Assembly: GCA_025024175.1 (NCBI GenBank)
Contig: QCXZ01000064.1
Coordinates: 16,988,001-17,052,000, forward strand
DNA length: 64,000 nucleotides
Source: Rhyzopertha dominica
Lineage: Eukaryota > Arthropoda > Insecta > Coleoptera > Bostrichidae
Direction: 5' to 3'
Shown: positions 2,620 through 63,610 of the stretch, piece after piece
Position numbering within the stretch: the first letter of the stretch is position 1
How the letters are laid out: every line of letters begins with the position of its first letter
The notes under the pieces: model-generated
Database searches by the model: none
Told to the model about the DNA's origin: nothing
What the model saw: the letters and a program-made list of their open reading frames with translations, nothing else
Program-made: the position numbers and the translations under genes

Positions 2620-4834
2620 ATTAGTATAATTGCGAGTATTATTAGTCTCTATAAATTTTCGGTGCAGCAAACTGTTTAGAAGAAAACAGTGTCATTAAAA
2701 AAACGGGTTTTGCCAAATATCTCAGAAAATACTTAATTTATTCAAATATGAAAATACCATCCGATAGGAAATAACATTTCTCACAAAAAGTATTTAGAAA
2801 ATGTTTCTAAAATTTTGACATTTTCGAAATATTTCCAAAAAAATGAATATCGGAACCTGCCCACACAACTTTTTTTTAAATTTTGCTGTTATATAGAAAA
2901 TTAAATTTTTGATCGAAAAGCACTCTTGCAATTGTTTTGTTTAGTTAATAATTTTCGAGTTATTTACAAAAACAGATTTTACAAATTTATGGATTATTGC
3001 TATCACGAGAACCGTTTGTCGTAGAAAAAAATGTCTAGAGATAAAAAATGTTCAAAACCTTATTATTGATGGCATAATATAAGAAATAAAAGCGTAAATA
3101 TCATTTTGACAACTTGATCTGGAAGTATTGATTCAAATTGCAGCGGATTCTCATTATCTGACGCAAATCTGTTTTAAAATTATTGCACAAGTAACAACAG
3201 AATCTTACCATTTCCACACTTTTTGACTTGAACTATTCAAACAATAGTTTTATAATTTTACATCACCAACCTTAATTTTCCTTGTTCTGCTCGGGAGAGC
3301 TCCCAATACACGTTTCTAACTTTTAGTTGTCTGTAAAGCATATAACCACCGAAATAGTTCATTAAAGTTTTCAGTAAGAAGTTGCAAAAACAATTTGCAT
3401 TCCAAAATATCCTGTTTGTGGGTCTTCCTTATGTAACGTAAGAAGAAAAGTTACTGAAAGCTGTTCTTCCGCTTGAGGAAGTTACACTCCTAATAGCCAG
3501 TACATTGTGCATTGAAACGACTTCTGCTCCTACATCTATAGTTGAGTGTCGCATCTATTAAGGATATTACCTTGAGAAGAACCTGAATGTATCTTAAGAT
3601 GGTATTTGCTTGTGAATAGTTCTGCTACTCATCGCTTGTACCTGATGCACACATATCTACAGGACAAATACAGTGTAAGTACCTGAGAGGCAATTTCTCT
3701 TAAAATGCATTCTACAAAAATAAGTTGAGCGCAACCAAAGCTTGATCAACTCCAGGCGGTCGGAAAGGTATTAGGGCACCCCACGAAATAGAAAGGGCAG
3801 CGATTTTTAAACCCCGGGGTTGCCGTAGTTATATCTTTCGAGTCAGGCGAAAAAATGAATGTACGTTGGGCAATAATCAAGATTAAGTTTGGGGGCTAAC
3901 GCACCTACGCTTTGGGACGGATAAATTCGGAATGTAAGCCCAGCAGCTCGTAAATTCCCAGACCCCTCTATTTGGATCTAAATCCACTTCCTTAGCTCCC
4001 AAGGAAACCCGCATATCGTCGGTCCCGCCTTAAGATGGAGATGAGGACATATTATTACGACTAGACGAGAAAATTGATAGTGATGAAAGAGCTTGTTCCC
4101 TGCAAAAGTCATTTGGATGAAAATAAGCGGTTTGTGTCGATGATTAGAGCCCATCAGTGACTGTGACTGTAGACTGTAAGTTATATTACAATACATTTCC
4201 ATTTCAGCTCAACTTCCACCTTAAAATGATTACAACATAAAATTGAATTAAAATTATTAACAATGATAAAAATTGAATAATTTAGTACTAAGGTAACTAA
4301 GTCTCCCATTACTCCTTGATCTTTGCTTCAACGACAACTCTGCACATACATTTAGACAAGATCGGTGTAGGTTTCCGTGGTCTCTTAAAACGGCAAGATA
4401 CATCATCTATGAAAATCTATTTAAGCTTAAATTGCAATTTCAGGCTTTGATATGTATGCAAATATTTCTTAGGAGTGGGTATCTAGCTTGCCCAACTTCG
4501 AAACATCTTTTGGGTTTATATACTTATATTCCAATTGCTGGCAAGTACAACAAGAGTTCGCTAAGAACGTTAGAATATTTGAAAATTAAGGAAGGAAAGA
4601 CAATTGTTTCTGATAGAAGAGTTTTCTCCACGTTGCTTTGTAATGGAGGAGTGTGATGTACTGTCGCTGTTTGATATGAATTTTATACCGCTGAAAAATA
4701 AGATTAAAACCTGGGACTAAGACTAAATACCTAACCTCATCTGGAGGAAGTTGCAACAAAAGTAACAACAGTTCTATGGGACTGCAGATGCCGGGCAGGA
4801 GGAACGTGAGTTTATAACAAAGTTAGAATTTAGG
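2620..4834. other. No recognised feature
   Basis: AT-rich sequence with no ORF that resembles a known protein. A patch at about 3755-3990 is richer in G and C than its surroundings but has no readable coding sequence on either strand. Confidence 0.5.
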
Positions 4835-5110
4835 ATGGCAATGCCATCTGTCGGCATGTTGTCTACACTAGACCTAAACTGCACTGATGAGCTGTAATGA
4901 CAGCGAAATAGTACTATCTGCAGTTGGTTGAGGTGTAGACAGCACAGCATAGACATGCATTTTATANCAAAGTTGTTTAGTTACATACGCGTCCTTGGTA
5001 TCGTAGNGTAAATGCATCACGANAAGCGTAAAAGATAGGATGATCAAGCTACAAAGACCTGCTTGCCTGAAAAATACGGAGGCAATGCATACAACGCGGC
5101 CATGGAAATG
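4835..5110 (+). mobile_element. Hammerhead-ribozyme element, copy 1 (retrozyme/SINE-like)
   Basis: This copy starts with the palindromic block GGATGGCAATGCCATC followed by TGTCGGCAT, then runs into a complete hammerhead (4861-4940), then GCATAGACATGCATTTTA (4949-4966) and a CTGCTTGCCTGAAAAAT block near 5060. The same blocks occur in the same relative order on the minus strand at 32011-32390, and partly at 22598-22834 (minus) and 43019-43265 (plus). This shows a dispersed family. It has no ORF of its own. Ends are approximate because no target duplication was found for this copy. An inserted or diverged stretch separates the ribozyme from the 5060 block. Confidence 0.65.
4861..4940 (+). ncRNA. 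Type I hammerhead ribozyme, complete by inspection
   Basis: The outer part of helix I pairs GTCTACAC (4861-4868) with GTGTAGAC (4933-4940). An internal loop follows (4869-4876 against 4926-4932). The inner part of helix I pairs AACTGCA (4877-4883) with TGCAGTT (4919-4925). The core CTGATGA is at 4884-4890. Helix II is GCTGT/ACAGC (4891-4895, 4900-4904) with loop AATG. GAA is at 4905-4907. Helix III is the self-complementary ATAGTACTAT (4908-4917), and the predicted cleavage nucleotide is C4918. Every conserved core position of the hammerhead (CUGANGA, GAA, A15.1-U16.1, H17) is present. In known type I hammerheads the internal loop in helix I contacts loop II for full activity. The very short helix III is typical of retrozyme and PLE hammerheads, which often work as dimers. 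Confidence 0.88.
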
Positions 5111-5791: not shown

Positions 5792-5907
<116 letters not shown>

Positions 5908-9456: not shown

Positions 9457-10566
9457 ATTTCAATCACGACCTATATCAACTAGAGCATAAGCAATTTTAA
9501 TTACAATGGTCGTGACGTATAGATTTATTAACAATCCTGCCCCTATTCACCTTTCAAACGACCTAAATAGTCCTTAACCCTAATACTCTATATAGTGGCA
9601 GGTTTTAAGATGCTGAATTTGAAGTTAGCGAAATAGGATTACCAAGACGTGTTCAGCCGTCTCGCATATTTCGTCGTATGCAACACTGCCGCTACAATGT
9701 GCTTTACTGCACCACGAAAATATATATTTCCTTTAAAATTTTATTTGTCAGGTGCNTGNAAAGTTCTCCATACGTTATTAATATTCAGCACATTTATCGA
9801 ACGAGCTGAAAAATTCAATTTGTAGAGCCACGTACTCCTCCCTAACACGCTTTACGAGCATGGCTAGAAATTCTCCCGTAACAGTTTTGTGAAAACATGT
9901 TTTGCAGCACAGAATTTATACAGCTAAAATGGTTCAAATTGAAAACAAATTTAATCAGTTTACATTGCTAGTTTACCTGCAAATATAAGGCAAAAGTAGT
10001 CGTCAACACCGCAGAGCATGTGATGTGCATTAGTTAAAAACAAGGTTGAACTCAATGTACCCCAATGCATCAAAAGGTTTCGGGAAAAGAAATATCTATT
10101 AACAGAATAACAATTCTTTTAAATAACGAAAATAACTTTACAACTTAATTGTTTAAGTAAAACAAAACCAGAAGTGTGAATTTCATTTAGCAAAGCCGAA
10201 TTGTTTGGAGAGAGCAGTACTTATGTCGAAAACACTAACGTCAGATTTTGAAAACTGCCAACAATATATTAGATATTCTAGAAGACGCTAGAGGAAAACA
10301 TGATAAGCAGTTATTAATATGCTTATTATTTTGTGACGACATATATCTATAAAACCAATTAATTTGGGCAATTTAAAGAACTGTAACTGTTAACCTCAAA
10401 AGTTCCATGTGAACTAAATATCACCATATTGAATAGCTTTTAAACAAGCTGGTTTATGTTTGTACTTTGTTTCATACTATTTTTTGAATAATTCGATATA
10501 GTGAGTTCATCATGTTTCGCAAAGAGTGTATTTTCGAAATTATTTAGTTTAATACTTATATGTTAA
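9457..10566. other. No recognised feature
   Basis: AT-rich, with short ORFs only. Two Ns lie near 9757-9761. No motif is recognised. Confidence 0.5.
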
Positions 10567-12284
10567 TACACTCGTGGCCAAACTTATTTCATATTATCAA
10601 AATTCGTAAAACTTTAACAATGAATATTTTAGCAACCACTGGTCGGATTGGAATGTTTTCTTTTTAACTGAAGCTCTTTTATGGGTGAATATGAGAGGAG
10701 AGGAGATGTCCAGAAAATATAATCTTTATATTGTACAGGGCGAATAAATAATGTCATGTTTTCTTCATCAAATTTTACCGCCTTCTGTGGTCAATACCAG
10801 TTGGCAGAGGTCAACTATTCAGCAAAGTTAGCCTAGTGTTTCCCGAGTATTTTGTTTTTTTTTAAATCAATTTATCTTGACTACTTCCCTAGATATTCAA
10901 TTTTAGGTATAGCAATTTGATTCCAATTGGCGTTATCGTGATTAAATAAAAACAGTTTTTAAACGGAAAGACAAATTTAATTATCAAAGGCAACAAGGTT
11001 TTGTACTGACTGGCAGTCTTCAATGAAACAATAAACTTCTGTAAACGTGAATTTAATATCGGGTGTTACCCCCTCGAGCATCTAATACGGCTTGCATACG
11101 CCTTCTAATTCCCAAAATCAAATTTCACAGGTAAGGTTGTGGAATGTTTTCCCACTCTTCCTAAGCTGCGTTACGTAATTCTCTTAGGGTTCTTGGAAGC
11201 TTAGTTCGATTTTTCTCCTCCAAAGGCTACATTTCCCACCAGAATGCAGGGCGCAAAACGCTCATTTCTGCATCTATATACGAAATTACGCCCATCTGGA
11301 AATAACACTTGAATGCGCGTTTCATCACAAAAAAAAGCACATTACTCCATTGCGCTTCATTCCACTATAAATCTGCCTAGGCGAAGTTTCTTCTCTCTAT
11401 TCTGTGATGATTAAGCAATGTTGGGACCTTTGCAGATCGTCTCGCTTTTAACCCAGTTTCCTTAAGCCTCTTATAGATTGTAAATCGGCTTACGTTCATC
11501 ATAGTAGCTTCCTGAAGATGCCCACGAAGCTCAGATGCCGTTGCAGCACGATTTCTTAGAGCACTAATTTGTACTAAACGGTCTTCTCTAGCCATTGTGC
11601 TCCTCGGACGGCCTTGGACTGGTCTTTTGCCAAATCTTTCGGTTTCCCTGAATCGTTTTATAACACGGAAAACAGTGGATTGATGCATATCCAAGTGTTC
11701 GAAAATTTCCCTCTATGTCAAACCCACTTCAGTCAGAGCAATGGCTTCGCCAGCCACCGTCTCGTTGTAAGGATGAATTTTAGTAATCAGTACTCAATAA
11801 ACTTCTGTCAGTACACTTTCTAACTATCACTGTATGTAATGTACATCTGCCAAATATAATTGTCATTATCATAATTGTTTGTTGCTAAGTGATGGTTACA
11901 GAGGGTGTTGATAGAATGGTCAACGATAAAATGTAAGAATTGTTAAAAAGTTGAATATCTATCGACGGATTCTAGTTAAATTGATAAAAAAAAACCGTAA
12001 TATGCGGGAGACACCAGGCTACTTCAGTGAATAGTTGGAGCCTCAGTCACCTGGTATTGCCCACAGAAGACGTTAAACTTTGATGAAGAAAACATGACAC
12101 TATTTATTTGCCCTGTACTATATGAATATGTTATTTTCTGGGCATCTCCTCATTACATCATATTCACGCATAAAAGAGCTTCAATTCATAAAAAGGCATT
12201 CCAATCCGACCAGTGGTTGCTGAAATATACATTGTCAAATTTTACGAATTTAGAAAGTATGCAATACTTTTGCTCATGAGTGTA
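10567..12284 (-). mobile_element. Tc1-like transposon with 234-bp inverted repeats, defective
   Basis: Left end 10567-10800 and right end 12051-12284 are long imperfect inverted repeats of equal length. Both begin with TACACTC-TG and share GCAACCACTGGTCGGATTGG and TGTCATGTTTTCTTCATCAAA. The terminal TA on each side fits the TA target duplication of the Tc1/mariner superfamily. Long repeats of this size are known in Tc1 relatives such as S, Minos and Quetzal. The total length of 1718 bp is close to full size for such elements. The interior carries a broken transposase on the minus strand, so this copy cannot encode its own movement. Confidence 0.88.
11053..11800 (-). pseudogene. Tc1-like transposase, frameshifted and internally deleted
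   Basis: The N-terminal part reads VALTEVGLT-like, then HLDMHQSTVFRVIKRFRET and a GRPRST hook between the two helix-turn-helix DNA-binding motifs. It continues open from 11694 to 11377. A catalytic-domain start follows with FCDETRIQVLFPDGRN, giving the first catalytic aspartate. The sequence then jumps from NVAFGGE-like residues straight to LPRTLRELRNAA and the C terminus QAVLDARGGNTRY (stop at 11053). The middle of the DDE domain, including the second and third catalytic acids, is therefore missing. There are also in-frame stops, one just upstream of 11694. It lies inside the 10567-12284 element and is non-functional. Confidence 0.82.
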
Positions 12285-12360
12285 TTAGGATTTCTCCGAT
12301 TTTCTGGCGTTCAAGGCAATATCAGTATTGAATTCTTGTACCGAAATAAAAACTACGGAA

Positions 12361-19919: not shown

Positions 19920-20270
19920 TAGAGTTGGGAATAATCGGATGATTGAAAGAATCGGAATGCTCCGATTCCGAAGACGTTAATAATCGGAATAATATTCGGA
20001 ATCGGAATAAAGTGGGCGAAGCGTCAGTCAGAATAGAAACGACACACGCGTCGCCTTAGCTCGGCGTCTTTCGCTTCCCATGCGATCGAGTTGCAGTTGG
20101 TGTTTATGATTTTCAAATTTAGATTAGATTTCGTGGTTATACCCTTCAACCTAAAGGATTGTTTTGCGTTGCCCTGTGCAGAAAGATTACCATGTACAAT
20201 ATTGCAATACCAATGATGGCTTAGTTATAGGTACATGAATGTTGCGTAAAACTATACTTAGAATTTTCTA

Positions 20271-21555
20271 ACGTATGTCTCAAAAGTTTTGGCACAACAT
20301 TCACTGGCGTTAAAACTGGCGATAATGAGAACACATCGAAATGGCTTTGGAAACAAAAATTCTTCAATCGATTCTCTTTATTGTGACAGCTCAGTTTTAA
20401 GTAATATTTGCATAGAAATGTCTTATAAATTAGATCTTCGGAAAAGTATATACTCTTTGGTTGGGCAGTTGCCAAAACCAGAGATAGTACGCTTGTTCGA
20501 AGATCAAAATATCGCTCGCCGTACTATTTATCGTACAATAGCTGAGTGTGAGCAAGGTATACCATGCCTAAATTTACCAAAAAGTGGAAGACCAAGAATT
20601 TTTACTCAAGAGAGAGCAGAAAGATTGGTGAGAAGGGCTAAAAATAGAGTTGGAGTGTCTCTCAGGAATATCGCACTTCTAAGGACACAGTTTCGAGGGA
20701 ATTGGTCAGAAATGCTGTAGAATATCGAAAACGAAGAAAATGTCCAAAATATACGGAAAATCAGTTGGCACGGATACCACGATGTTGTCGGGCATTAAGG
20801 CGGATCCATTTTGCAAACGACAGAATCATCGTTATGGACGACGAAAAATATTTTACACTGGGCAATTCGGAGATGAAGGAAAATGATGGGTTTTATACCG
20901 ACAACATAGAAAACTGTCCAGACAATGTAAAATATAAAGAAAAGGCGAAATTCGCCGACAAAATTTTAGTTTGGTGTGCCATTTCCACTGCGGGAATATC
21001 CAGGCCTTATGTCGGACGTGTAAAGGGCGAAGCAATAAACAGTCAGCGCTATATTCAAAACTGTCTGACCAAATTGGCTGACTTTATTCACGAGTATCAT
21101 GCTGAAGACAACATAATGTTTTGGCCAGATTTAGCTTCTTGCCATTACGCACGCGAATCTCAAAATTGGCTTAACGCTCATAACATCCCATTTGTACCCA
21201 GAAACGATAATCCCCCTAACCTACCCCAGGCTCGTCCAATTGAAGATTTTTGGGCACTTTTATCTAGAAAGGTCTACGATGGAGGATGGCAAGCTGCAAA
21301 TGAAGAGCAGTTAAGGAGTAGAATCTATAGAAAAATAAGAGAGGTAGATGGCGAGGTAGTCCAAAACCTAATGCGCGATGTCCGCAGAAAGTTGCGCCTT
21401 GTTGAGGAGCACGGGCCGCTTCATTTGATTTGAATTGTTAATTTTGTTGTTTGTAATATTGTTAATCCTTGCATATAATTAAAATTTAAGTAAAATTATC
21501 TTTGCGTGTTAAAATTGAATAAAGTAATTTGTGCCAAAACTTTTGAGACATACGT
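20271..21555 (+). mobile_element. DD37E Tc1/mariner-superfamily transposon, full length
   Basis: Perfect 27-bp terminal inverted repeats (20271-20297 and 21529-21555) begin ACGTATGTCTCAAAAG and are flanked by TA on both sides (20269-20270, 21556-21557), the standard target duplication. At 1285 bp the element is of normal full length. It contains one transposase gene with a single evident frameshift. The perfect repeats and light damage suggest a fairly recent insertion, younger than the hAT-like element that contains it. Confidence 0.93.
20418..21433 (+). pseudogene. DD37E transposase with one frameshift
   Basis: I take the ATG at 20418 as start because the conserved N-terminal domain begins there; an in-frame ATG at 20325 exists upstream. 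The N-terminal half (to about 20672) carries the paired-type DNA-binding region with a GRPR hook. Near 20672-20678 the frame changes through a short indel, after which a second frame is open to the stop at 21433. The DDE acids are D (20840-20842, in MDDEKYF), D (21128-21130, in FWPDLASCHYA) and E (21242-21244, in PIEDFW). There are 37 residues between the last two, hence DD37E, a family first noted in mosquitoes (ITmD37E) and found in other animals. All three catalytic residues are kept; the frameshift should abolish function. Confidence 0.9.
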
Positions 21556-22293
21556 TACTTACCAAAACTTGCATAGGTACGGCGTGATTATGTCATTTCT
21601 GTATTCTGTATAAATTTTCAATGAGATCTTGTTATCGGTGTTCAATTTTATTCTCATATTATTTGCCATAAACATTATTGAAGTTAAAAGCTAAAGTCAT
21701 GGTTAATAACGATAATAATTTTAATAATTAAGAAACTCACTGCTTCAGTCAGACAGAAACGTAGTGAAGTTTACACCAATCCGTTTTGGCATTTGGAAAT
21801 AATATTACGGAGAGTAGCGCGTGAAAAACACGCATCAATACCGAGCAAGCGTAGGCGATCATGTATTTCGACAGGTTTCTAAGTTTTGATATTATAACTT
21901 GCCTATGTTTTTGTATTGCATTTTACTTGTTTTTGAATTTGTATTTTGTATTTGAACGAATATTCCAACAAACAGTCATAGCCAGCGGAATGAGCTTATT
22001 GTCNGTATCGAACAAGCGCGAGCGATTGGGTAATTCGGTAAGTCTCTAAGATTCGATACATAACCCACCTTCCTTGCGCAAATTGTTTCCTATTCCGATT
22101 CTAGTTCATATTCTGATTCCAGCAAAAAGTTTCCTTCGCATCGTGTGGTGGTTATCATCGGTATGACAGTAAACGCGAACCGTGTGCGGGGTGAAAATAA
22201 TCGTATTCCGAATATTCTGAAATAATCGGAATCATCCGAATATTTGAATAATCGTAAACATTCCGAATATTAATTCGGGTAGTCCCAACTCTA

Positions 22294-22301
22294 GTGATTA
22301 C
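22294..22301 (+). other. Right 8-bp target site of hAT-like element
   Basis: GTGATTAC follows the right terminal repeat and matches the left flank GTGATTAG in seven of eight positions. Confidence 0.65.
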
Positions 22302-22583
22302 TTTGTTCTTGATGTTTTTTCGAAGCTGTATAATTGTTATTTTTGAGTTTTAGTATTTTTATGTTGCTGTATGTTGTTTTTAAGTATTGTTCCGTTTGTC
22401 CTATATACTGTTTGTTACACTGTTTGCCATTGTATACTGTACATTGAACGTGATCTTTATTCTTGTGGTGGTTGTATTTTTAAGGGTGTGTAGAACTGTT
22501 TAAAACGTATTAATTCGTCTATATGTAGTTTGCATTTGATATGGTTTTAGCATTTCTTAATTTTTTGTGTAAGGGGTGGTATG

Positions 22584-22597
22584 GTAGGGTTAAGTAT
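22584..22597 (+). other. Left 14-bp target duplication of HHR element
   Basis: GTAGGGTTAAGTAT here is repeated exactly at 22835-22848. The PLE reading frame is contiguous if one copy and the intervening 237 bp are removed, which supports a true insertion. Confidence 0.88.
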
Positions 22598-22834
22598 AAT
22601 AATTACGTCTATGTCATGTCGCCTGCTTCAAGACAATCTGTGGACAGCTGTTTCGGCTTATAAAGCCTCCTCAGCACAGCTATAGTACCCAATGCAGACA
22701 ACACGGCATAGATCTGGCTTCCCTTATATACGACAAGGTAGGCGATGTGTATGCGAGATTAGTTCTCCACAGAGACAAGTGGATGATGCCGTATTGCCAC
22801 TAGATGGCACGGTGTCATCCACACTGTAATTCTT
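22598..22834 (-). mobile_element. Hammerhead-ribozyme element, copy 2, with 14-bp target duplication
   Basis: This 237-bp insert in a PLE is flanked by perfect 14-bp direct repeats. On the minus strand it runs through an imperfect hairpin (GGATGATGCCGT against ACGGTGTCATCC on the plus strand, 22781-22820), then GTATATA ... CTATGCCGTGTTGTCTGC, the hammerhead, and GCATAGAC-like sequence ending GTAATTATT. The upstream block matches the minus-strand sequence at about 32288-32330. Its ends are weakly inverted (AATAATTAC against AAGAATTAC). The long duplication suggests retroposition by a nicking endonuclease rather than a cut-and-paste transposase. It has no ORF. Confidence 0.75.
22638..22679 (-). 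ncRNA. Hammerhead ribozyme, core complete by inspection
   Basis: Minus strand, 5' to 3': helix I strand CTGTG (22679-22675), core CTGAGGA (22674-22668), helix II GGCT/AGCC (22667-22664, 22658-22655) with loop TTATA, GAA (22654-22652), self-complementary helix III ACAGCTGT (22651-22644), cleavage nucleotide C (22643), and helix I return strand CACAG (22642-22638). A weaker outer helix may pair TGTCTGC (22700-22694) with GCA and GACA (22626-22617). Helices are shorter than in the 4861-4940 copy and of different sequence, yet all pair, which is what conservation of structure predicts. N7 is G, which the core allows. Confidence 0.8.
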
Positions 22835-22848
22835 GTAGGGTTAAGTAT
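22835..22848 (+). other. Right 14-bp target duplication of HHR element
   Basis: GTAGGGTTAAGTAT, identical to 22584-22597. Confidence 0.88.
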
Positions 22849-23220
22849 GTCATGTTCGTGCTTTCTCTTATTTATCGGTTTTAAACTATTATACAGTTTT
22901 TCTCTTTGTTGCTTTGTCGTGTTGCTTATTACCTTAGTTGGGTAATTGTTACTGTTTAGTACTTCAGTTATTGTGAATAAGGTTTCATTTATAATTTCTG
23001 GAATAGTGAATTTTATTAGTCGTTGTATTGTATTGTTCAGAATAGATATTTTTTGTTTGTGTGGGTGGTTAGAATGATAATTTAAGATTCTTCCCGTTTC
23101 CGTTGGTTTTGAGTACCATTTTGTTATACTTTTGTTACTCTTTTTAATCAATGTAAGGTCAATATAGTTAATTGTGTTGTTCTTTTCTGTCTCTATAGTT
23201 ACTGTAACCTCAGAGGCACT

Positions 23221-26200
23221 GACAGAACATCGGCATATTTTTTTGTCTTATTAATCACAGAATTATTTACCAATTATTTATTTACTTAAAATAATTTTTG
23301 AGTACACCAACCTCCATTATTTGTAAATACCAAGAGATGTTGCTGGAAGTACATATGTAAATAAAAGTTTTGATATGCAACTAAACACTGAATACCGCTA
23401 AAAGTGGGAATGCTTTAAATATGAACGCAACATTGCAAGACATATAAGCTGTCAAATAAGGTATTGCACAAATGATTAGTTGTGCATAACCACTCTTTCG
23501 AGTAAATTGTGTACTTAAGTATTTTATTTAAACAGTAAGTTAAGCTAATATTGTGCGAAGTGTTTTAACCTTAATTTCACAGCATATGTGTTAGGTGGTT
23601 AGCGATTTGGAAAAGGAGGCGTTGAGACCTGGAACTTCAACTAACCGGGGATGCATATCAGTCTCTTCATAGCACACAGTTTCCGTCATACTGATTTTGC
23701 TAAGCCGCCAATTAAAGAAAAATTACACATATCTACTTCATGGCGGAAATGTTTTACTCTTATCTAAATATGTAAATTATAAAAGGTTCTTAAACAGTCT
23801 TCAACTATACGTACCCCTGTATTAAAAAGAGAATTCATGTTATAATTTTTTTTCAAAGAATGTGTGGAGCTTACATTCACAGCCCTCCGTTCTAATTTTT
23901 AACAAGACTATCTATCTCGTGACGTATTGTAAAGCAAATTTAGGTCAATGAGAGCTTTTTTACACTTACCCACACCGTGACAAATTACTTATACCATTCT
24001 AGTACAACGGCGTGCTCATATACCTCAAGCGACTCTATTGGAGTTCTTACCTGAAACAAAAGAGAGGTCGATTTTAATTTAATTAGTTCATAATGAGGTG
24101 GTGAGAACAAGAATTAGGGAGCGGGCATTGTGTTACGAACGTCCTAGCAATGAGCGGACTATCGAGGAAAGCTAAGGAGCGAAATCGNTTGTGGAGTGAA
24201 TGGGAAACACAAAGGGGGCGTCAAATTGAAAGACAGAATCAGGAGAAAACGCAGTCCTACTGTTCGTAACAACCGATAAATTGAAAACTGGGGAAACATT
24301 AGCACGTGTTGAACGGAAGCACGGCGAGGGTTGCAAACGAAGGTCTTTTCTGGACGCAGCAGTAAAGGCGCGGAAATCAGACGTAGGCCGGCCACGCGGT
24401 ATTATACTTTGGACGCTTGAAGCATTTTCTGAAGGGGACCAGGAGCCGTAGGTAGGACGGAATGGGATTTATTCACAATACTATTTCAGGCAGGCTTCAA
24501 AAAATATTTGATTTGACCTTCGCAGTGAAAAGGGTAATTTTAGATCGATACAACAGTCAGTACAGTCCGCTGGTTCACAAGTAGAAAGTAGGTTCTTACT
24601 AATACTGCCACTAATATAATAATAAAAATTGTGGTGGGAGAGTACAGTACAATAGGCTGACAGGCAAAAATAGTAAAAGGCAAGTCAGATGATTTTTTTC
24701 TGCACAGAAAAGGTCCATCTACTGAATCTTGTGTAACATTGCAAACTGAATTGAGGAAAAATATTATGTTGCTGTCTTTGAAAGTAACCTGTTTACAATT
24801 AGATATCACAATGGGGTTGTAGCCCTTGATAGGAAATCGTTATACAACACATATGTGACTGAACCTAATGCAGTTAGAAGCAACAGAAAAAATATTTGTA
24901 ATGTTTTAATATCTTATATATCCGCTAAATTCAAATATTGTGTGATACGTCAGCGTTCCCTCAAGCGCAATTCGCTATTGCGCCGATGCGCTGAAAGCCC
25001 TGTTGCACGCTTGACGCCTTTGTCGCTGTTGAGCATTCTTAACATTTGTTTACCTTTTGGTTTTATGAACAGAGAACGTGTTAGTTTTGTTTTTATTTCC
25101 TTGGTATTTATACAAAGCATTTTTTTACCAAGAAAAGGACAAACATTTAACAAAAAAGTATCTAGAACAAGAACAGTTACATTATTTACGTTATATGACC
25201 TTGACAGTTGACAAAATAAGCAAATAAGCCTGCAAAGAAAACTCTTGTGGCCAGATCGTTCGATTTCACGCAAATTAGGCGATTTTGGGTTTCGACTTAA
25301 TAAACTGATATAATGGCAGCTACATAGACTGTAGCTCAAGTTTAAACGAGTTCACCTAATAAATAGTTGTTCCGCTTTTAATATCACTTAAAATATGTAC
25401 TTATTCTGCGGCTGCCATAAATTGAATTCTGTTTGCGATATATCCTCTACGAGTTAATATTTTAATTTAATACCTAACTATATTTTACATTTTAATATTT
25501 ACAGTGAAAACGACTAGCGTATCGCATTTAACACATCCATTCGCGTACAGTTGTTATAATTAATAATTACGGTTGCTAGTTTGGGAAATAAAATGGCAAC
25601 GCTGCTGCGACTTCGGTTTTAGAAACCTCATCACGGCCACAGAAATCGTATATTTATATATATTTTATTTTAATAAATAAGATTTCTGTGATCACGGCCG
25701 ACCGCACTGACTGGTATGATCACAACGGCGCGTAGCAACATNACACAATTACATCGCAGTAAACGCGCCAGGGAGCGGTGACGTCAGATATTCAAACTTT
25801 AAGCATAAACAATTATTTTTAAGCATTAGGTAAGAGCTTTGCGAAAAATGAAAAACACGGGTCTACTTTTTCATGTAGATTCATATTCTTCAATAAAAAA
25901 AATGGGGGCTACAGGCCCATTATATAGCGTATGTCAAACAGTAGTGCATATACCCTTTTATTATGAAATAATCCTTGGGAAAGAAAATAATATTACTTAA
26001 CAAAAAAAGGTATCATATCAGAGGGCCGATTATTAGAAGTTGTTGACCATTTTGATGTAGACACGTCTTACACCGCACTTCGAGGTACAATTTTGTAATT
26101 TCGAACTATGAGATATTACGGTTTATAAGTGTGGCAACAACCTAGCGAGTCCAGTGAAATAACACTATTTTAAATGACTAATATTTGTCACATACATTTT

Positions 26201-29019: not shown

Positions 29020-32010
29020 TGTTGTGCTATTATTCAGTAGAACAAGCTGAACGTAATGAGTCATATATGTTTGACAATTGTCCGAGGTAATTAGCGGCAA
29101 TTGACACGTTGATCTTTAACTCCGCGCAACAGGAAAGTTGGAGTTGTATTATTCATTCAATTAGTTGCGAGCTCTAGGTTATCCCGTAATCAATTAGCTC
29201 ATACGATGGGACGGTGACCTGTGCTAACAAGCTTGTCGTTGACCAATATATTATCTAAAAAATGACATGATCAATACTTCCCAATGCCTGTATCGCAAGA
29301 AGAGCCGCAGTTCCCACCCTTTAAGTTGATTAGCTATATATTAAGTTTTTGTCAATTCAGTATAACCAAACACATAACAAAATATTGTAGCTGATAACGA
29401 TTCAGGAGCAAGATTGGTCCTTCTTCTAAGCACCCAAAATAATTAAAGGTAAACTACGATAACCAAAACAATCTGCCTCAGTAGTTCTGGTTGAAACACA
29501 CTTCAAACGGCAGCATGTTAAAGTAAAAGCATGCCCCATTCACTTGGTGGAAACAGCAGCAGTACAGAAAACATAGTCGTAAAGATTGAAGTTTGAAAGG
29601 AAAAAGTGCGAGATTATACTACTGCCATCAATAAAAGAAGACACTTTCACGTCATGGTTAAAGTTAGGGTTGAGGTAATAGCAGAAACTATTGATGACCC
29701 CCTTCCGTAATCAGATATCCTGATAGCGTTGTACGTAAGAAGAGAACAATTATTCAAGTTCTTGAGTTCTAATCCAGTTATAGTGACTTATCCATATACT
29801 GGAAACAGTTGTTGTCACAAATGTTAGAGCAATAAAGTTGGAAGATTTTGTAAACACAAAAAAGACAACAAAAACGAGATTAGAATATTGAGGAATTCTA
29901 GGTGGATTGTGTAAGGCATTAAAAACAATGAATGGCATCCAAGTTTGCATCGAACTGTAAGTTACAAAGACCAGGGTATGTAAAGAAGGTTTATTAGAAA
30001 CGCGTATTAGTGGCAAATACACTTGACAAAGGTAATAATTCATTATGATTGTTCCAGTAATTTTTGAAACTGTACGTCATTTTGATTAAAACGCAACCTG
30101 AAACCATACCTATTTATAGACCGCAGAGTCCGTACCTCTAAGTAAATAAGTATCTAATCATTTATACTGCCAGTTTAAGTATAATATCCAGAAAGAAAAA
30201 ATACACCTTCCGCCCTATAATAACATTCTACCCTTGCATTTGGCTATTTTTACCGTTTTGGTGCTGATTTCGGCACCCCTGGTCCTGAAAAGGAGATGCA
30301 CTAAGCAACTAGTCATGAAGCTCTGATCATTGCAACCCCATCTACAAAATTAGTTACTCGTGAAACGGTTTCCCCGCATTTATTTATGCGCTATAATATA
30401 ATATGTTACATGAGGTTAAACACCCGATATACAGCTATGTACAGTGCAGCCACAGACTCCATTTGTAGAATTATCTGCAAATTAATTTCCGGTAATGGAT
30501 AGACCAACTTGCAAACAGTATTATGTTTATATACTTCATGTACGCTATTCCACGTTTTGAAAGAGGACTAAATTTGAGCTGATCTACAGTTCGTATAAAC
30601 TAAAGATGCGTGCCAGTAAAATTATTAATTATGCAATAAGCAGGTTTTTTAACAACGATGTTAATGCTTTATATGACAGTATCAGGTAAAGTATGTTACC
30701 AAAAATTTTTTAACTGGGTTTTATGACTGGATTGTGTATATTAATTTTTTAATATATATTTTCTGTAGCTATATATGTAAAATAACCGCTGATAAAAAAA
30801 AGTAATTCGCTAAGCCTATTCTTAGTATCTAATTTACGAACACATTATGCACCTGTTTTGGTCAACACACTATGTATATGACAAAAAGTCGTGAGGTCGT
30901 CACTTGCCCAAGATTTGACTGATTTTGATATCTCACTTCCTTTTGTTATTGACCTATTTCCATCAGAGTTTGTAGACATATTTCTGGACCGAAAACTTTT
31001 GCAACCTACAGCTACAGGTACTACTTAAGACGAATTGAAATAAACATTTATCAAGTACGCCGAATTTCAAGACGGTGGTAGGTTGAAAGAAGCGCTCCAA
31101 AGCAAAGGGCACAAAAGTCGCAAATCATTGCTCAAAGGCACTTTTGTGGAGGGCCCCTAAACGTACACGCAATACCACAAAATCCGTTTAAAGCACGAAT
31201 TGAATTTTACATTGAGTGCAGGATGAAATGGTACGTCTCTGTGCTGCCTGGCGTGTTCGTCATTCTGACTGACGGTATTACATTTAGTTCCTGTGATAAC
31301 ATAAAATATACATCGAGAATCGGTAAGGATGCCGCATGGGGGAAGATATCGGGGAGATGCACATATGAATTTGTGTGAAGGAAATATACGGCATAAAAAA
31401 GCTCCATTTTCAAAGATACCAAAGTTAAGGAATACTCACACTAATACAGAACTAGGGTACAAAATGCATTTTACATAAAATTATATGGTGATTATTGATT
31501 TTGACACTATAAGTGTTCAATAATATTAATACTTTAATTGACATTCATCTAATGCTGTTCGTTTATCTTTCGTTTGAAGTCCAACTCCAGGCAGTCTTTT
31601 TTATCAAAACTGAAGCCTAAGCCAAACTATTGACTGTACTGTTATTTTCGCCCGAAGTCACAGCAAAAAACGATCCAATGCTTTTTACCAGTAAACATGA
31701 GATTTGTAATAGCTTTTTAGCATTTTATCCATGCAAATTAGGTTTGGTCACGCTATATTTACACTACACTACACAGTAAATGCTTTTACCACTTAAAATT
31801 ATACTACAAGAGCTTGAACCACGAAAAATTTAAGCAATACATATAGTCTGTACTGTTATTTCATGGTGTTACACTCTTAATTTTTATACAATTTTGACTA
31901 ACATCAAATAATTTGGTGAAGTCGTATTTTCTGATAATAATAATATGAAAATTATATACGTCGCAACCGTTGTCCCTACCTTTCAAGATACGTGACCTTA
32001 TATAAAAATA
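29020..32010. other. No recognised feature
   Basis: AT-rich sequence without recognisable protein motifs. The hydrophobic minus-strand ORF 30043-29750 has no recognisable domain and probably arises by chance. Confidence 0.5.
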
Positions 32011-32390
32011 GATAGCAATGCCATCTGTCAGCATTACACAGACATGATGACAAGGCCACCTAGTTGCCTTAATAAGAACTACTTCCTAAATGAAGTGAGC
32101 TGTGTTCTATCAAGTTGGCATGCACCTGCATACATCAACTTCATAACAGGCCGCCACGGCACATTTTTCAGGCAGGCAGGATCCAACATACATTAAAATA
32201 CATGTCTATGCTATTCTGTCTGCATCACAACCAACTAGACAGATTCGTTTCGCTGTTGATACAGTGTAGTTAGGCCAAGCGCAGACAGTGTGGCATAAAA
32301 CTGGTTTTGGCTATATACCAAAGGTTTGGTATAATCTAAGTAGAAAATTAGATGACAATGCCATCTGTCAGCATTACAGTGACATGACGT
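32011..32390 (-). mobile_element. Hammerhead-ribozyme element, copy 3, with 340-bp direct repeat
   Basis: The block GAT-(A/G)(G/A)-CAATGCCATCTGTCAGCATTACA occurs at 32011 and again at 32351, a 340-bp period, so the copy holds one full unit plus the start of the next. Between them on the minus strand are a decayed hammerhead (32288-32216), AGCATAGACATGTATTTT, a CTGCCTGCCTGAAAAATGTG block and CTAGGTGGCCTTGTCA. These match copies 1 and 4 in order. The tandem-unit layout is what animal retrozymes show. No ORF and no clear target duplication were found. Confidence 0.65.
32216..32288 (-). ncRNA. Decayed hammerhead ribozyme
   Basis: The outer helix pairs CTGTCTGC (32288-32281, minus strand) with GCAGACAG (32223-32216) over 8 bp. 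It is in the same place as, but different in sequence from, the GTCTACAC/GTGTAGAC helix at 4861-4940. Between them GGCCTAA and GTTGGTTG loops and ACAGCGAAAC are recognisable, but CUGANGA plus most of helix II is reduced to CTGTATCA, so it should be inactive. Confidence 0.6.
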
Positions 32391-39870: not shown

Positions 39871-41035
39871 AACACTAGAAAAATTGTGAAATATAGCATC
39901 AGCGAATAAATATAGGAGATGTGTGTTTAAATCTAGGTAACAGGTCTATATAAAGAGAACAAATGAAAAAGAATGTCAGAAAACAAATGCCAAATATCCA
40001 TAACCAATAACACAGTGAAATTAGTTGTACTACGCCTAATTTAACATTTAACATTAACGTAAGATGTGTGAACTGTTCACCTTAACTATTTAAACGAAGG
40101 TTAATACATTTCTCAGTTCCCCTATTCGCAGGAAACTTATCATTGCTATCAAGCATGCACCATATCCCGCAGTTAATATAGGAATGCCCAGTTCCTTCGA
40201 ATATTATTCCCCAAAACGAAATTAAACATAAATTTTATTTAATGATGACATAACCAACAATCATACTACTTAACCCATTCAAAACGCCAGCGATACTGTA
40301 GCGTATGCGACACCTTCAAGTGTCCGTAAATGAAAAACAACTTAATCAGCAATAAATTTACTCGTTTTTCAAGATGTGCGGGTATGCCAGCCAAGATGAT
40401 ATCACACTTGTGGGAGTGTAAATTGAACGCCATACTCGGCTAGTTGCAGCGGGGAGCGTGCTGAATGGGTTTTCTGTTTTATAACAACGTCAAAGTATCC
40501 GATTACTACCTGCCAGATGAAAGCAATTTCTGTATAACTCGAAACAGTTTACGAGTAGGCAGTTAGCCACCTGCGTTGGGAAGATGTTCGCCGCCGGACC
40601 CGCGATTTTCAGCTTCTTTATGGACCAATAAACACAACATGTTCATAGGTATTACGATTCATAGCTACCGAGTAATTTAGACGCTAGACGCAGTACAGGT
40701 ATAGGAGGTGTGTGTTAGATTTGTAGCTTCCCATTTATACAGACACTTCGATAAATACCTCCGCATCCAATGATCACACCCTAAATGCCAATTAAGTTGC
40801 AGAGGTCAAGATTTAAACGCGATTTACTGTCACTGTCAGGCATAAAAATTCCGTAAGTATACGCGTACTGTTCAGCCTATGAAATATCTGTGTACTGACT
40901 TGGTACTACTTGTTATTTACAGGCTGTTTAAACAGCCCGTAGAAGTATTGTAAATTGTGTTGTAAACAAAAATATTTGCAAGATAGGGACGCATCCGGTT
41001 AAAGAGGGTATCAACTTTGCTATTATAAACAAAAC
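39871..41035. other. No recognised feature
   Basis: Probably begins with the 3' untranslated part of the R1-like LINE, but no A-rich tail or target duplication could be fixed. Nothing else is recognised. Confidence 0.45.
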
Positions 41036-41342
41036 CTACATGTGTAAGAACGTAGGCTTTCGCGGTCAGTTTTATTGAAATCTTAGTCTTTTGGAGTTAG
41101 GCCGCGTCTGATTTAGAAATATGGTCGACGTTTCGCCCGCACTTAAGGGGCATCATCATTCCTTTCTTCCTTGGGATTTGGTTCAGTTTGGACGTGTTTC
41201 TAGCGTTAGGTTTGCACCATATTTCATACACCTTATTCCTGTCATGATGATGCCCCTTACAAGTGCGGGCGAAACGTTGAACCTCAAAAGACTAAGCATT
41301 CAATAAAACTGGCCGCGAAAGCCTACGTTCTTACACATGTAG
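41036..41342. mobile_element. 307-bp foldback element with GAAACG-type motifs
   Basis: The ends are CTACATGTGTAAGAACGTAG and its exact inverse, and the inverted similarity continues inward through TTTCGCGG-CAGTTTTATTGAA, CTTAGTCTTTT, and AACGTTTCGCCCGCACTT to GGGGCATCATCAT. The left arm has an extra stretch around 41093-41116. Each arm, read towards its end, gives ATGATGA, a GCCC/GGGC hairpin, then GAAACG, a hammerhead-like order seen near PLEs. The spacer is about 85 bp. It has no ORF and is either a foldback MITE or the inverted terminal part of a PLE. Confidence 0.65.
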
Positions 41343-43018
41343 CTTCACCATTTATTCACTTGATGGTAAAGTGACCTTTGGTTTATTTCCTTTCTTGTGC
41401 CAGTTCAAAGCATCTTTTAGTAGGTTAAAATGTTAATTTAATAACATTTGCAAACATGGTAAAACTCAGTTGAAGTAAACGATTTGAAATCCTAGCGTTG
41501 CCATGGTTGGCTGAGGAGGTAAACAATGTTCAACAAAAAATGTGATTCATTTAATAACGTTCGTCCAAAAAGAAAGAATATTGTCCACTCCACGGCGTCC
41601 AAATTAGTTAAAAATATTAAAGAAATTCAACAGATAAAGGTTGTCCTAATGTCCCAACATCCATAATTAGCTGCAAGTGAAGTTCAAGGTCTTAGTGTAT
41701 TAGCGCCATTGATACCTCATATACGTCAACCATGCATCTTGCTATGAACAAATGAATTAGTCAGTCGTAGGTTCAAATATTAAAAAAGAACAAATAATAT
41801 AAACCCTGCAAAGTACGGCTTCTCTGTGAGCTAAAAGAAGATCCTAATAAAAAAATGCTTATTCTGTGCGATATTGACGGACATGTTCAATAATAGGCCA
41901 AATTGTGCATACGACATTTAATTTTCCGACGTAGCCACTTTTAACTAAATGGCATAATTNCTATTCGTCTAGTGTATATCTTCACTANATAGTGGAATAA
42001 GCATCCACACTATCGTGTGTGCGCTGGTATTAATTGACAAAACATTATAGGTCAAACGTACATATGAGCCTACTACGTGAAAAATTGTACCTGATACTGT
42101 ACATTTATTTCCTGATGAATATCGACAAAGAATGCCTTACTCCTAGGTCTGGTTTCAAGGAGACGGCGCTCCGTCACATATGGATTTAAAGTTCTTCTTT
42201 TGCATCGAGAATCTCGATCTCGAAACTAGTTCAATGAATGACAAAAGATATAAATAATTTGTTCATTACTGATATTCAACAAATGCTTATATAAAGTTTT
42301 TATGGATCTTTTTGCGAAAGTACATTTAAGGGTTTATGGTGCAGTAATAATAAACTACATTATTTATATAGTAATATGAAGGATATTATTAAGCAGTATG
42401 AGAATCAAGGAATAATTAGCAAACAGGCAGTCTACACATTTAGTACCTACAGGAATCAAAATCTTTGTTTTCGTTGACCTATTTGTGAATAGAGAAAAGC
42501 AAAGGTCAGAGGTACATATCTCAGTTTCAAAATAATTCATTCATTATACCGTACAAGCAATGTGTATGAAGATTGTGTTAAGATAAGAGAGTCAAGTTAG
42601 TTTCACTGAAGATAATATGGTCTAACCATTTTCATTTTTATGGTTAAAAATTGGTACTCCTGGGGATTCTGTACTGGCCGTGGATATATTATGTTATCAA
42701 GAAATACCATAGAAACAATATCAATAACAATGTGGTGACAAACAGTAGGAGTAATTGACACGGACAACTGATATCGCCGATTAAACAGACTCGCGCATGC
42801 GTCACTTTACCGGCTAGATTCGAAATAACTTTGAAAAGCGCGGCGCGCTTTTTTTAAGGTCAGCTCTGTTTGCATTATTAGTTGTAAATGTGACTCCGCT
42901 TTCAATTTTTTGAATGCGAACACAGAGAGTGAAACCATGTCAACAAAGTCATAGATGCTATTTAAAATTTTGTGAAAAGCATCGCTCTTAGAACGCAGTA
43001 TCAGTTTTCAACAATCTG
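41343..43018. other. No recognised feature
   Basis: AT-rich, with Ns at 41960 and 41987. No coding motifs or shared repeats are seen. Confidence 0.5.
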
Positions 43019-43265
43019 CCAAGTTCGCATGCACCTGCATACATCAACCCGACAGCAGCCCCCCGCGGCGCTTTTGCTGACGGGCAAGAACCGAAATACA
43101 TGTCCGTCCGCAAAAAGTGCCGTGGGGGCTGCTGTCAGGTTGACACAGGTCACTTCCATTAGAAAGTAGTAACCATTAAGGCAGCTAGGTGGCTTTGTCA
43201 CCGTGACATGACACATGGCATTGCCATGTGATGAGCTGTAATGACAGCTGTCTGTACAGTGCGCA
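43019..43265 (+). mobile_element. Hammerhead-family element, copy 4, with a 33-bp stem
   Basis: It shares AAGTT-GCATGCACCTGCATAC and CTAGGTGGC-TTGTCA with the 32-kb copy and ends with TGATGAGCTGTAATGACAGC, the core and helix II of the 4861-4940 ribozyme. However, C3 is changed, the GAA triplet is lost and helix I is absent, so the ribozyme is dead. A GC-rich inverted repeat (43045-43077 against 43110-43142, 33 bp with a few mismatches) frames a 32-nt loop. The long minus-strand ORF over this region is a by-product of the GC-rich palindrome. Confidence 0.6.
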
Positions 43266-50307: not shown

Positions 50308-50391
50308 ACGTTGCTTATTTGACCTTGATGTTTCGACACTAATGTCGGTGTCTTCCTCAGACGTAGTTCTAAAACTGAAGTGTCCTAGTCT
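50308..50391 (-). repeat. PLE terminal segment with hammerhead-like motif (left arm)
   Basis: This 84-bp arm is the inverse of 50668-50751 with a few mismatches. On the minus strand it contains CTGAGGA (50360-50354), one extra A, a GACAC/GTGTC hairpin, and GAAAC (50334-50330). It lies just downstream of a PLE endonuclease remnant on the same strand, where PLEs carry their hammerhead-bearing terminal repeats. Confidence 0.6.
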
Positions 50392-50419
50392 GCTCCGGTA
50401 TTTATACTCGTCCGGTTCA

Positions 50420-50640
50420 CTGATGCGTGGACGTTGTTACGCATGACCGGTTTCCAGATTTCAGGTAGTTCGATGCCTTGGTCTCAGTTATAATTGTGCT
50501 GATTCTTCTGGATTTCGATGGCTTCCCTGTACAGTCTCGGCCAGAATCTCGCTTCCCTTGACAGCATCTGTGCCCCCTCGAATTTGGTGATGTGGCCAGT
50601 CTCCATTTGGTGTCCTGCTGCAGCCGAGGAGGCACAAATG
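50420..50640 (-). pseudogene. Penelope-like GIY-YIG endonuclease C-terminal fragment
   Basis: The minus strand reads AAAGHQMETGHITKFEGAQ, then a WPRLYREAIEIQKNQHNYN block, a stop, and QGIELPEIWKP. This matches the end of PLE endonucleases (AEHxxxTGHxIxFxxTxVL, xRxxxEAIEIxKxxxNFNRDxGxxLSxxW). The YIG motif is missing. An internal inverted duplication (CTCGGCCAGAATCTCG at about 50539 against its inverse near 50656-50672) has rearranged the upstream part. It sits between the two inverted arms 50308-50391 and 50668-50751. Confidence 0.75.
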
Positions 50641-50667
50641 CTGTCAAGGGAACCGAGATTCTGGCCG

Positions 50668-50751
50668 AGACTAAGACACTTCAGTTTCAGAGCTACTTCT
50701 GAGGAAGACACCGACATGAGTGTCGAAACGTCAAGGTCGAATAAGCAACGT
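50668..50751 (+). repeat. PLE terminal segment with hammerhead-like motif (right arm)
   Basis: Inverse of 50308-50391. The plus strand gives CTGAGGA (50699-50705), an extra A, GACAC, an 8-nt loop, GTGTC, and GAAACGTC (50725-50732). Confidence 0.6.
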
Positions 50752-56004: not shown

Positions 56005-56940
56005 TGTTACCTTCCTAAATTTGGTAGCCAACAAATTATGAAAAGAAACTACAAAACAAAATTCAAAGTAATTCAGAAATTCACAAACGCACTTCAAACA
56101 CTAGCACCGAGGACACTGGTATTACCACGTTCTTAAATTGCCTCTACTTGAGAGGACCAAGAAAAAAACTTATTAGTGTAGGGGGGATCCAGGTTGCGCG
56201 GTTTGCCGAGCTTACCCAGGGTTGAACGGGGCGTGGTTCTATCTCGTAGTAACAACGTTAATAATTATCGATATTCGAAGAGCGCCACCCGAATCGCGGA
56301 CCGCACGAAGATTTGGCAACCCCGACACCCTCACCTAACTTCACGTCAATCAATTCGGGAAACTGACAAATATGTGGTCACCGAGGTCAACAATAACGAT
56401 GATGAGACAATACAAGAACAACCATAAAGTCCAGTGCAACACAAGATGTACTTTATTACGTAAGTGTATAGTTGGTACAGGCAAACATGCCCACCCACGA
56501 AAGTATATACACCAGGTACAACTAAAGTGAATCAAAAAGGTAAGTAACTGCTGTGGAAACTACAGAATTTCAAGGTAAGTAAAGTTAGATAATTTAAAAT
56601 TCTCTTATGGAACACCAAAAAAAAACAGTTAATAATAATCACAACTATACTTTCCGCTAAAGTCAACAAAAGAAATATACTATCAAAATTTTAATATTCC
56701 AAAGCTTAACTTAATTTAATGTACTTAAATTGTAGCCAGACTTTATGGCATACACAAGAATGAAAAGCTACACAAAAAAAAAAAATGTGATACAACAAAG
56801 ATGAAACCCTATTGGGTCACCCGCTACAGCTGTACTGGGCTCACACGCTTCGCTTACACAACTATTAAGAAAATATTTGCTGCAAAGGCCTGCAGCAACA
56901 ACACAAAAACAATCAAAATTGTAAGCAAGAAAAAAAAGGA

Positions 56941-57180
56941 ATTACACTGCAATTATTGAAAACGCGGTAAAATTGCTCAACAATGTCTAATCATTATTTT
57001 TAGAATGTTACCAAAAAGGAAACGCGAAAATACAAAGCAATTAGTATAAATGCGGTGAAATTACTCGATAATGTCCAATCACTAATCTTAAAATGTACAC
57101 GAAGGAAAAGAGAAAATACGAAGCAGTTATTGTAAATGCGGTGAAATTACTCAACAGTGTCTAATCACTAATCTTATCTG
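56941..57180 (-). repeat. LTR-internal tandem array, three ~87-bp units
   Basis: GCGGT-AAATT-CTC is found at 56964, 57052 and 57138, each followed by AATGTC-AATCA or similar, giving periods of 88 and 86 bp. The third unit is partial. Arrays in an LTR commonly act as promoter or enhancer elements; no such role is shown here. Confidence 0.75.
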
Positions 57181-57236
57181 TTTCCCCTATGGTGGAGATC
57201 TGATTCCTGGTCACTCCGGGATTTCCACTGGCTTCC

Positions 57237-57395
57237 TGGAGGTTACTAATCCACAGTCAGATGAAGAGGAATGGTCCTGAATGGTTACAGCCGAAGTATA
57301 CAGATGGAACACTGGCTGGAGGTTACTAATCCACGGTCAGATTAAGAAAAATGGGCCTGAATGGTTACAGCCAACGTGATTCAGATGAAACACTG
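57237..57395 (-). repeat. LTR-internal tandem duplication, two 80-bp units
   Basis: TGGAGGTTACTAATCCAC occurs at 57237 and 57317, and CCTGAATGGTTACAGCC at 57276 and 57356, an 80-bp period. The two units differ at a few positions. Confidence 0.85.
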
Positions 57396-58127
57396 TCAGG
57401 TAAGATTTGTGAACCCAGAAAAACTGGCCTAAAAATACATTTGCCATTGTGAATTACTCTTATCAGAAATTCAATTTATACAGGAAGAAAAGTTGGATGA
57501 CTATCGATGAGGTACATACCTGGTGTTCGACCAGACCATGTGCTCTGATGGAAAAAACAGCAAGTATTCTGGCTTTTATTCCCCGAAAGCTCAGGAAAAG
57601 TTTATTCTAACGGCACTAAATGATCCCACTAAGGCCTTCCAACATTAAAAATTTTCTGTTCGGAAACACAACTGTATAGTGCCCGTTATCCACAGGTAAA
57701 ACCAAAAATGTGGCAAACTTTTACACCAGCCAAAATCAGAATGAATCACTGTTTTAGATAAGTCATCAGATAGAGGTCGACAGCCTAGGGTCCTTCAGAT
57801 TTTACCAACCGGATGATAAGACCAACCTTGACTCTAAGAACCGACCGACAGATTGTAAACAATAACCTGCAAAGCATTCTAGAGCAGATTTACACGGAAA
57901 GACAATTAGAGTAAAATACCGCTTCTAACAAAATGTCCACATCATAAGGATCAATACACATCTTAAAATAATTTCACGGTAGACAATGCTATAAAAGGAA
58001 AAATATTGGATTCTCCAACCCGGAAAGATAGGCAACCAACTCAACCATATCAATTGTAAACATCCAGAGAAATAAAGAAGACGGATAATTTCTGTGTAAA
58101 ACCCTTCTGAAAAATCAAACTGTAACA

Positions 58128-58141
58128 CTCCCCCCCTCCTT
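58128..58141 (-). other. Polypurine tract of the Gypsy element
   Basis: Minus strand AAGGAGGGGGGGAG directly abuts the 3' LTR start (TGTTAC in sense). It is the expected primer for plus-strand DNA synthesis. Confidence 0.9.
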
Positions 58142-63468: not shown

Positions 63469-63600
63469 ACTGTAATTAGTTACCAAAGAAAGAAATGAAT
63501 AAATGTAAGACGTTTATACACATAAAAAGTGCAACTATTTATTTTCTCCCCCCCTCCCTGGAGAAGAAAAAACAAAAAAAAGAAGAACACAACAACAAAG
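63469..63600 (-). other. 5' leader of the Gypsy element
   Basis: Untranslated leader between the primer site and gag. It contains a purine tract (63546-63561) that copies the polypurine tract almost exactly. Confidence 0.8.
63546..63561 (-). other. Second polypurine-tract-like sequence
   Basis: Sense strand CCAGGGAGGGGGGGAG, differing at one base of 16 from CCAAGGAGGGGGGGAG at the 3' LTR junction (58143-58128). It lies about 54 nt inside the 5' LTR boundary. Confidence 0.6.
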
Positions 63601-63610
63601 TTGGGCGCCA
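63600..63610 (-). other. Primer binding site, tRNA-Lys type
   Basis: Sense strand TGGCGCCCAAC lies four bases after the 5' LTR and complements the 3' end (GTTGGGCGCCA) of insect and vertebrate tRNA-Lys(CUU). The match stops after 11 bases. Confidence 0.82.

Follow-up and report, generated by a model that had tools for sequence, protein, structure and literature searches.

Introduction

Metazoan non-LTR retrozymes, as described in the excerpted part of PMC7229834, are short non-coding units of ~170-400 nt with a type I hammerhead ribozyme and a GC content below 45%, which occur in tandem copies and, when target-site duplications (TSDs) are present, have more than 4 bp of them. In that excerpt the mover of animal retrozymes is unsettled, Penelope-like elements (PLEs) being a strong candidate on account of shared features and co-occurrence. 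According to the passages of PMC11167929 cited here, a purified Anolis PLE both cuts and extends each strand of the target, and on its own hammerhead-carrying RNA it has two internal start sites. The bdelloid PLEs, in the cited portion of PMC3846280, show an inverted pseudo-LTR with a tail confined to one end, and their TSDs measure 8-10 bp. Hammerhead-bearing repeats are also represented by the pDo500 satellites of cave crickets, for which a double-hammerhead model was put forward (excerpt of PMC2837043), and by the Schistosoma W elements, one of which has a reported presumptive TSD (excerpt of PMC8490949).

The window analysed here is a 64,000-nt stretch of the genome of the beetle Rhyzopertha dominica (contig QCXZ01000064.1, positions 16,988,001 to 17,052,000). 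Its hammerhead-bearing insertion A belongs to a family that resembles the metazoan retrozymes, as excerpted, in the type I hammerhead, the short non-coding unit (351 nt), the low GC content, the tandem copies and the TSDs, and for which PLEs are likewise the suspected enzyme source. Unlike the retrozymes of that excerpt, many of its examined copies are single or head-to-head inverted insertions whose ends are fixed, and same-strand tandems are confined to 6 of 36 loci. With PLEs it shares inverted insertions with one end longer, TSDs, and two internal start sites near the hammerhead, presumably with both target strands used; as far as the cited parts of PMC11167929 and PMC3846280 go, it differs from them in being non-coding, in having these sites ~198 nt rather than 30-40 nt apart and in a ribozyme with a full core and helix III. 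The pDo500 and W repeats share the presence of a hammerhead and are set apart by their descriptions, in the excerpts cited, as satellite or tandem families. A is best read as a member of a non-coding family of retroelements that has been active recently and is of the animal retrozyme kind. That PLE machinery integrates such a family, with internal priming from two sides, is in our estimate true with a probability of roughly 0.7.

Results and discussion

Insertions of the window and their reference unit

The features are collected in Table 1. The reference unit of 351 nt (GC 0.442) was taken from the tandem locus L040, and u1 denotes its first base past the cleavage site. The longest stop-free runs of the unit are 49 and 67 codons, so that it contains no long ORF; with its hammerhead, low GC content and length it lies within the range of the metazoan retrozymes. 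No ORF with RT and GIY-YIG parts is present in the unit, which is consequently not classed as a PLE.

Table 1. Hammerhead-bearing insertions, their relatives and associated features in the window
Feature	Position	Strand	Remarks
TSD of insertion A, left copy	4811-4824	+	TTTATAACAAAGTT
Insertion A	4825-4960	+	136 nt; 5' inverted piece, ribozyme, 42-nt tail past the cleavage site
TSD of insertion A, right copy	4961-4974	+	TTTATAACAAAGTT, one N
Type I hammerhead ribozyme A	4858-4943	+	predicted cleavage after C4918
A, outer helix I	4858-4868/4933-4943	+	11 bp, one G.U
A, inner helix I	4877-4883/4919-4925	+	7 bp
A, CTGATGA box	4884-4890	+	
A, helix II	4891-4895/4900-4904	+	5 bp, loop AATG
A, GAA	4905-4907	+	
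A, A15.1-U16.1 and C17	4908-4917; 4918	+	
A, helix III and loop	4908-4917	+	ATAGTACTAT, perfect palindrome, possible dimer contact
PLE gene remnant split by D	22291-23247	-	part of RT and GIY-YIG-like part
TSD of D, copy after insert	22584-22597	-	ATACTTAACCCTAC, exact 14 nt
Insertion D, inside PLE gene remnant	22598-22834	-	237 nt
Second complete type I hammerhead, D	22618-22702	-	GUC triplet, predicted cleavage after C22643
TSD of D, copy before insert	22835-22848	-	ATACTTAACCCTAC
Decayed relative B	32001-32387	-	direct repeat of 47 nt with copies 340 nt apart; remnant of a ribozyme, core box deleted
Scrambled relative C	43016-43248	+	pieces in both orientations; 20-nt fragment of helix II identical to A

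Insertion A is monomeric and 5'-inverted and is flanked by a 14-nt TSD; these features, like the second complete ribozyme D and the PLE-like insertion geometry, go beyond what the earlier note on this DNA had described. Positions 4819-4857 correspond to u244-u206 on the other strand, and 4857-4965 to u290-u47 in direct orientation. The TSD words of A and D are unlike each other and thus derive from the targets. For comparison, 2000 random anchors were scanned at comparable places, and 14 of them had a repeat of at least 14, a number that includes real repeats.

The gene remnant interrupted by D has a 69% identical stretch in common with P0121, which carries RVT_1 and GIY-YIG, and P0121 aligns on either side of D, scoring 195 bits when the empty site is joined and 156 bits when the locus is left interrupted. 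This PLE identity was obtained with a 319-aa read-through, and no identification came from short pieces in Pfam, from a 134-aa piece in a homologue search or from a PDB sequence search.

The sequences of A, B and D were combined in a model, which in the window finds each of them again at E below 1e-18, together with two weak antisense overlaps (0.047 and 0.12) and nothing further up to E 10. A TATATAAG-like word lies ~20-30 nt 5' of the ribozyme in D (22720-22731, minus strand) and B (~32308-32320, minus strand) and also occurs in many genome copies; it may be a promoter. Adjoining B, a 14-nt direct repeat with arms ~200 nt apart (31634-31861) could bound another insertion.

Genome-wide copies, their ends and target-site duplications

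A search of the genome with A (479,159,283 bases in 138 contigs), in which 40 of 393 candidates were scored, gave 60 matching stretches, and the number of candidates means that the family is larger than the sampled set. The 36 loci fetched with their flanks, being the best matches to A, contain 50 ribozyme copies when up to 3 substitutions are allowed. Over 107 nt, 42 of the 50 copies in these loci do not differ from A, and 48 have the fixed core letters intact, proportions that overstate the family at large because the loci were chosen as best matches to A. Same-strand tandems like those of the metazoan retrozymes occur at six of the 36 loci (L018, L035, L037, L039, L040 and L043; A itself is a monomer) and reach four units in L040, with a spacing of 351 nt and no ORF. 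Opposite-strand pairs are found at six loci as well (L013, L015, L018, L031, L037 and L043).

The ends were mapped on the unit for 37 insertions (the 36 loci and A). Right, sense ends fall at u46-52 in 32 insertions, 24 of them at u46-48, and at u240-251 in five; values above u46-48 include extension by chance or microhomology. The left ends comprise 18 inverted ones at u240-251, five inverted ones at u46 and 13 direct ones, which are plain 5' truncations, while one lies off the fetched stretch (L040). The five insertions with a left end at u46 are the same five whose right end is at u240-251, that is, one arrangement seen from the opposite strand. One end of each class is present in all 23 complete inverted insertions. 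The family thus shows the two internal start sites with unequal inverted ends and TSDs that are known from PLEs, with a different spacing of the sites. The query spans u290-u47, and copies stopping before u47 would therefore have been chosen less often; the sharp stop past u47 is not accounted for by this span. Moreover, D, which is 64% identical and stands outside the genome-search selection, also ends at u47. A limited literature search found no earlier report of fixed retrozyme ends. In the inserts, the sequences on both flanks of the cleavage site follow each other as in uncut RNA, which means that the template was either uncut or religated.

A TSD score of 11 or more was reached by 27 of the 37 insertions, compared with 2 of 291 swapped flanks, in keeping with the TSDs of more than 4 bp of metazoan retrozymes, and 22 of these 27 TSDs are 13-16 nt long. 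The other ten score 10 or less (L010, L012, L019, L022, L024, L025, L027, L035, L039 and L040); for L012 and L025 an earlier scan gave longer repeats, so the figure of 27 may be low.

Penelope-like elements of the same genome

P0121 has 106 matches in the genome, with places up to 99% identical. The open frames among these matches reach 864 aa, and in a lineage ~60% identical to P0121 several measure 826-828 aa. L065 and L066 each contain two PLE units in tandem that are 99.9% identical, plus head-to-head inverted copies, and in all four loci of the 826-aa lineage (L065-L068) the left inverted outer end is ~40 nt longer than the right one. The P0121 lineage was represented by 21 loci (L045-L064 and L069, with L049 and L069 being one place), of which 11 extended past the fetched sequence and were excluded, leaving 10 bounded on both sides. 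Six of the latter (L050, L052, L053, L055, L062 and L069) join a CCACAAAATAAACACCAACA-type end to a TACTATAAGAAAAA-type end, and in L045, L046, L057 and L058 one end or both are of another type. Both lineages together, unequal inverted ends are present in 10 of 14 bounded insertions, and a TSD score of 10 or more in 12 of 14 against 1 of 182 swaps, the exceptions being L057 (score 9) and L058 (score 3).

No complete hammerhead was matched by the descriptor in 20 PLE loci, and Rfam, applied to four of them, gave zero hammerhead matches. The PLEs in L065 (4212-4280), L067, L045 and L049/L069 have kept stem II and the GAAACGTC of a hammerhead, with TTGAAAAA or CGACAAA at the site of the CTGANGA box. 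By analogy with the known PLE motif, we read this relic as a probable former hammerhead. If the pattern holds, the PLE would be an enzyme source without an active ribozyme, while its parasite retains one. A comparison of the retrozyme unit with the 20 PLE loci gave one significant match, 49 nt at 76% (u173-221 with L051:134-182), which is unexplained.

Mobilization of the retrozyme

The insertion geometry of the examined copies closely resembles that of the genome's own PLEs. Because the retrozyme ends fit the scheme of the Anolis and bdelloid PLEs, a PLE enzyme is proposed as the agent; ribozyme cleavage, RNA circles and the order of priming are likewise inferred steps. The ribozyme would cut multimeric transcripts, either singly or as a dimer formed at the palindromic helix III, and the products would be religated into circles. 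An autonomous PLE of the same genome would then supply the protein that cuts the target with a stagger of ~11-16 nt, whereby both target ends would prime reverse transcription at fixed internal sites of the RNA, ~u46/47 and ~u244. Joining of the two cDNAs would produce the head-to-head inverted insertions with unequal ends, and one-sided priming the 5'-truncated monomers. PLEs thus probably move the retrozyme, and the position of D within a PLE gene, with an exact TSD, supports this reading. The start sites are ~198 nt apart in the retrozyme and 39-43 nt apart in the 826-aa PLE lineage, so the two match in kind and not in detail; their end letters differ too.

The same copies could also have been moved by a LINE-type enzyme, with the inversions arising by twin priming and the main 3' end serving as a LINE-type recognition site. 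LINEs produce TSDs of comparable size and twin-priming inversions, and the 13 plain 5' truncations among the 37 insertions would suit them. However, the inverted part ends at a fixed place (the 18 left ends at u240-251), which random twin priming would not produce, and the PLEs of this genome pair unequal ends in a similar way, in a comparison that covers PLEs only. We regard the LINE-type origin as unlikely. Less probable still is an origin of the copies as pseudo-LTRs, the short and 5'-truncated ends of an autonomous ribozyme-bearing PLE, in place of a separate non-coding element. PLE pseudo-LTRs can carry hammerheads, according to the cited part of PMC11167929, and the geometry is as in the PLEs of this genome; yet the copies of L040 follow each other every 351 nt as a run of units without coding sequence, with stop-free runs as short as those given above, and the examined PLE loci have no complete hammerhead, which leaves the pseudo-LTR origin disfavoured and quite improbable.

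Returning to integration by PLE machinery, a more specific version of it would combine two parts: the PLE enzyme integrates retrozymes from circular or multimeric RNA, primed internally from both sides at the fixed sites ~u46/47 and ~u244, and the autonomous PLEs have lost their own ribozyme core while that of the parasite is intact. This combination is tentative and somewhat more likely to fail than to hold. If true, the ribozyme would now serve the template supply of the parasite and not that of the enzyme. In any case, one genome gives nucleotide-level insertion ends for both a retrozyme family and PLEs; the TSDs of the two agree in length, and both pair two unequal ends. This agreement makes the PLE idea testable with a defined RNA, start sites and PLE proteins.

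Structure of the hammerhead ribozymes

The hammerhead of A is confirmed. A letter-by-letter check found every core letter that the earlier note had listed (CTGATGA, GAA, A15.1-U16.1 and C17), along with the inner helix I and helix II at the lengths claimed, and its description of the motif, a type I hammerhead whose helix III is tiny and which lies in a short dispersed element, is supported by the near-identical genome copies and by the palindromic helix III with its loop. The lengths of the other two helices are to be corrected. The 8 bp claimed for the outer helix I are the perfect inner part of the full helix of 11 bp with one G.U pair, and the ~5 bp of helix III are possible only between two molecules, because 4908-4917 is a perfect palindrome; within one molecule the helix has 3 bp (ATA/TAT, loop GTAC). 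The computed two-molecule duplex of the palindrome has 10 bp and -9.6 kcal/mol.

D has the core box CTGAGGA and a helix III that is again a palindrome, ACAGCTGT. Both ribozymes have the three helices, open at helix I, of a type I hammerhead and its core letters CTGANGA, GAA, A15.1-U16.1 and H17, and the internal loop of helix I stands opposite a loop II of 4 nt in A and 3 nt in D. A more diverged retrozyme copy with a complete ribozyme, 90% identical, lies beside the PLE tandem of L065 (8335-8428); both partners of one helix II pair are changed there (G-C to A-T), and helix III and its loop form the palindrome ATAGATCTAT. From their letters, A and D are predicted to cleave at the sites given in Table 1, alone or as dimers. 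Dimer action through helix III has been described for other type I motifs (excerpts of PMC3088659 and PMC7229834), and by analogy the palindromes in A, D and the L065 copy would fit it.

The loose type I descriptor has two matches in the window, A and D, compared with one match in 400 dinucleotide shuffles, and the strict descriptor had none in 400 shuffled windows. The core-only pattern is not unusual by itself in the window (1 match against 1.23 expected). Descriptors of type II, type III and minimal hammerheads added no further ribozyme in the window; the one 'type III' match was an alternative reading of D. Two exact ribozyme patterns had 0 matches each in viral contigs. The segment 4861-4940 is more stable than expected (z -4.85; none of 200 shuffles equally stable), albeit the free minimum fold of A is not the hammerhead, which when forced lies 3.7 kcal/mol above it (-32.7 versus -36.4). 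For D, the forced hammerhead is 5.9 kcal/mol above the free minimum. It is in the core that the free minimum fold differs.

The covariance-model search suggested in the earlier note did give matches, all of them sub-threshold, with zero across the window at the Rfam gathering cut-offs. Over its whole length A matches best RF02275 (Hammerhead_HH9; 4868-4938, 28.0 bits, window-wide E 0.0081), which is below the 52 bits of the gathering score, so that A is not classed in that family. The match of D to Hammerhead_3 (26.6 bits, window-wide E 0.21) is such that Rfam alone would not establish this ribozyme. Of the 26 pairs in an alignment of A, B and D, 8 are changed on both sides and still paired, a number reached by 2 of 500 shuffles. 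Slid structures gave at most 2 such changes, in a comparison biased against them by a structure that had been derived from A. The unmatched Rfam cut-off notwithstanding, a chance hammerhead-like sequence within decayed repeats is refuted by the shuffle controls for descriptor and fold, the both-side pair changes and the near-identical copies across the genome.

Other repeats of the window

The window also contains a Ty3/gypsy-like LTR element (56005-64000) with identical 386-nt LTRs (56005-56390 and 63615-64000) and, on the minus strand, frames for gag and pol. A Tc1/mariner-like transposase in two overlapping frames (20262-21557), with a best relative 98% identical, belongs to an element with perfect 29-nt terminal inverted repeats (20269-20297/21529-21557). 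Among the named relatives of a window transposase, beetles are the most frequent, and midge, fly, rotifer and one bacterial-bin record also occur. Three foldback pairs (10564-12287, 41033-41345 and 50308-50751), with arms 81-93% identical, are of the small-DNA-transposon kind, and a perfect (ATA)38 microsatellite occupies 5792-5906.
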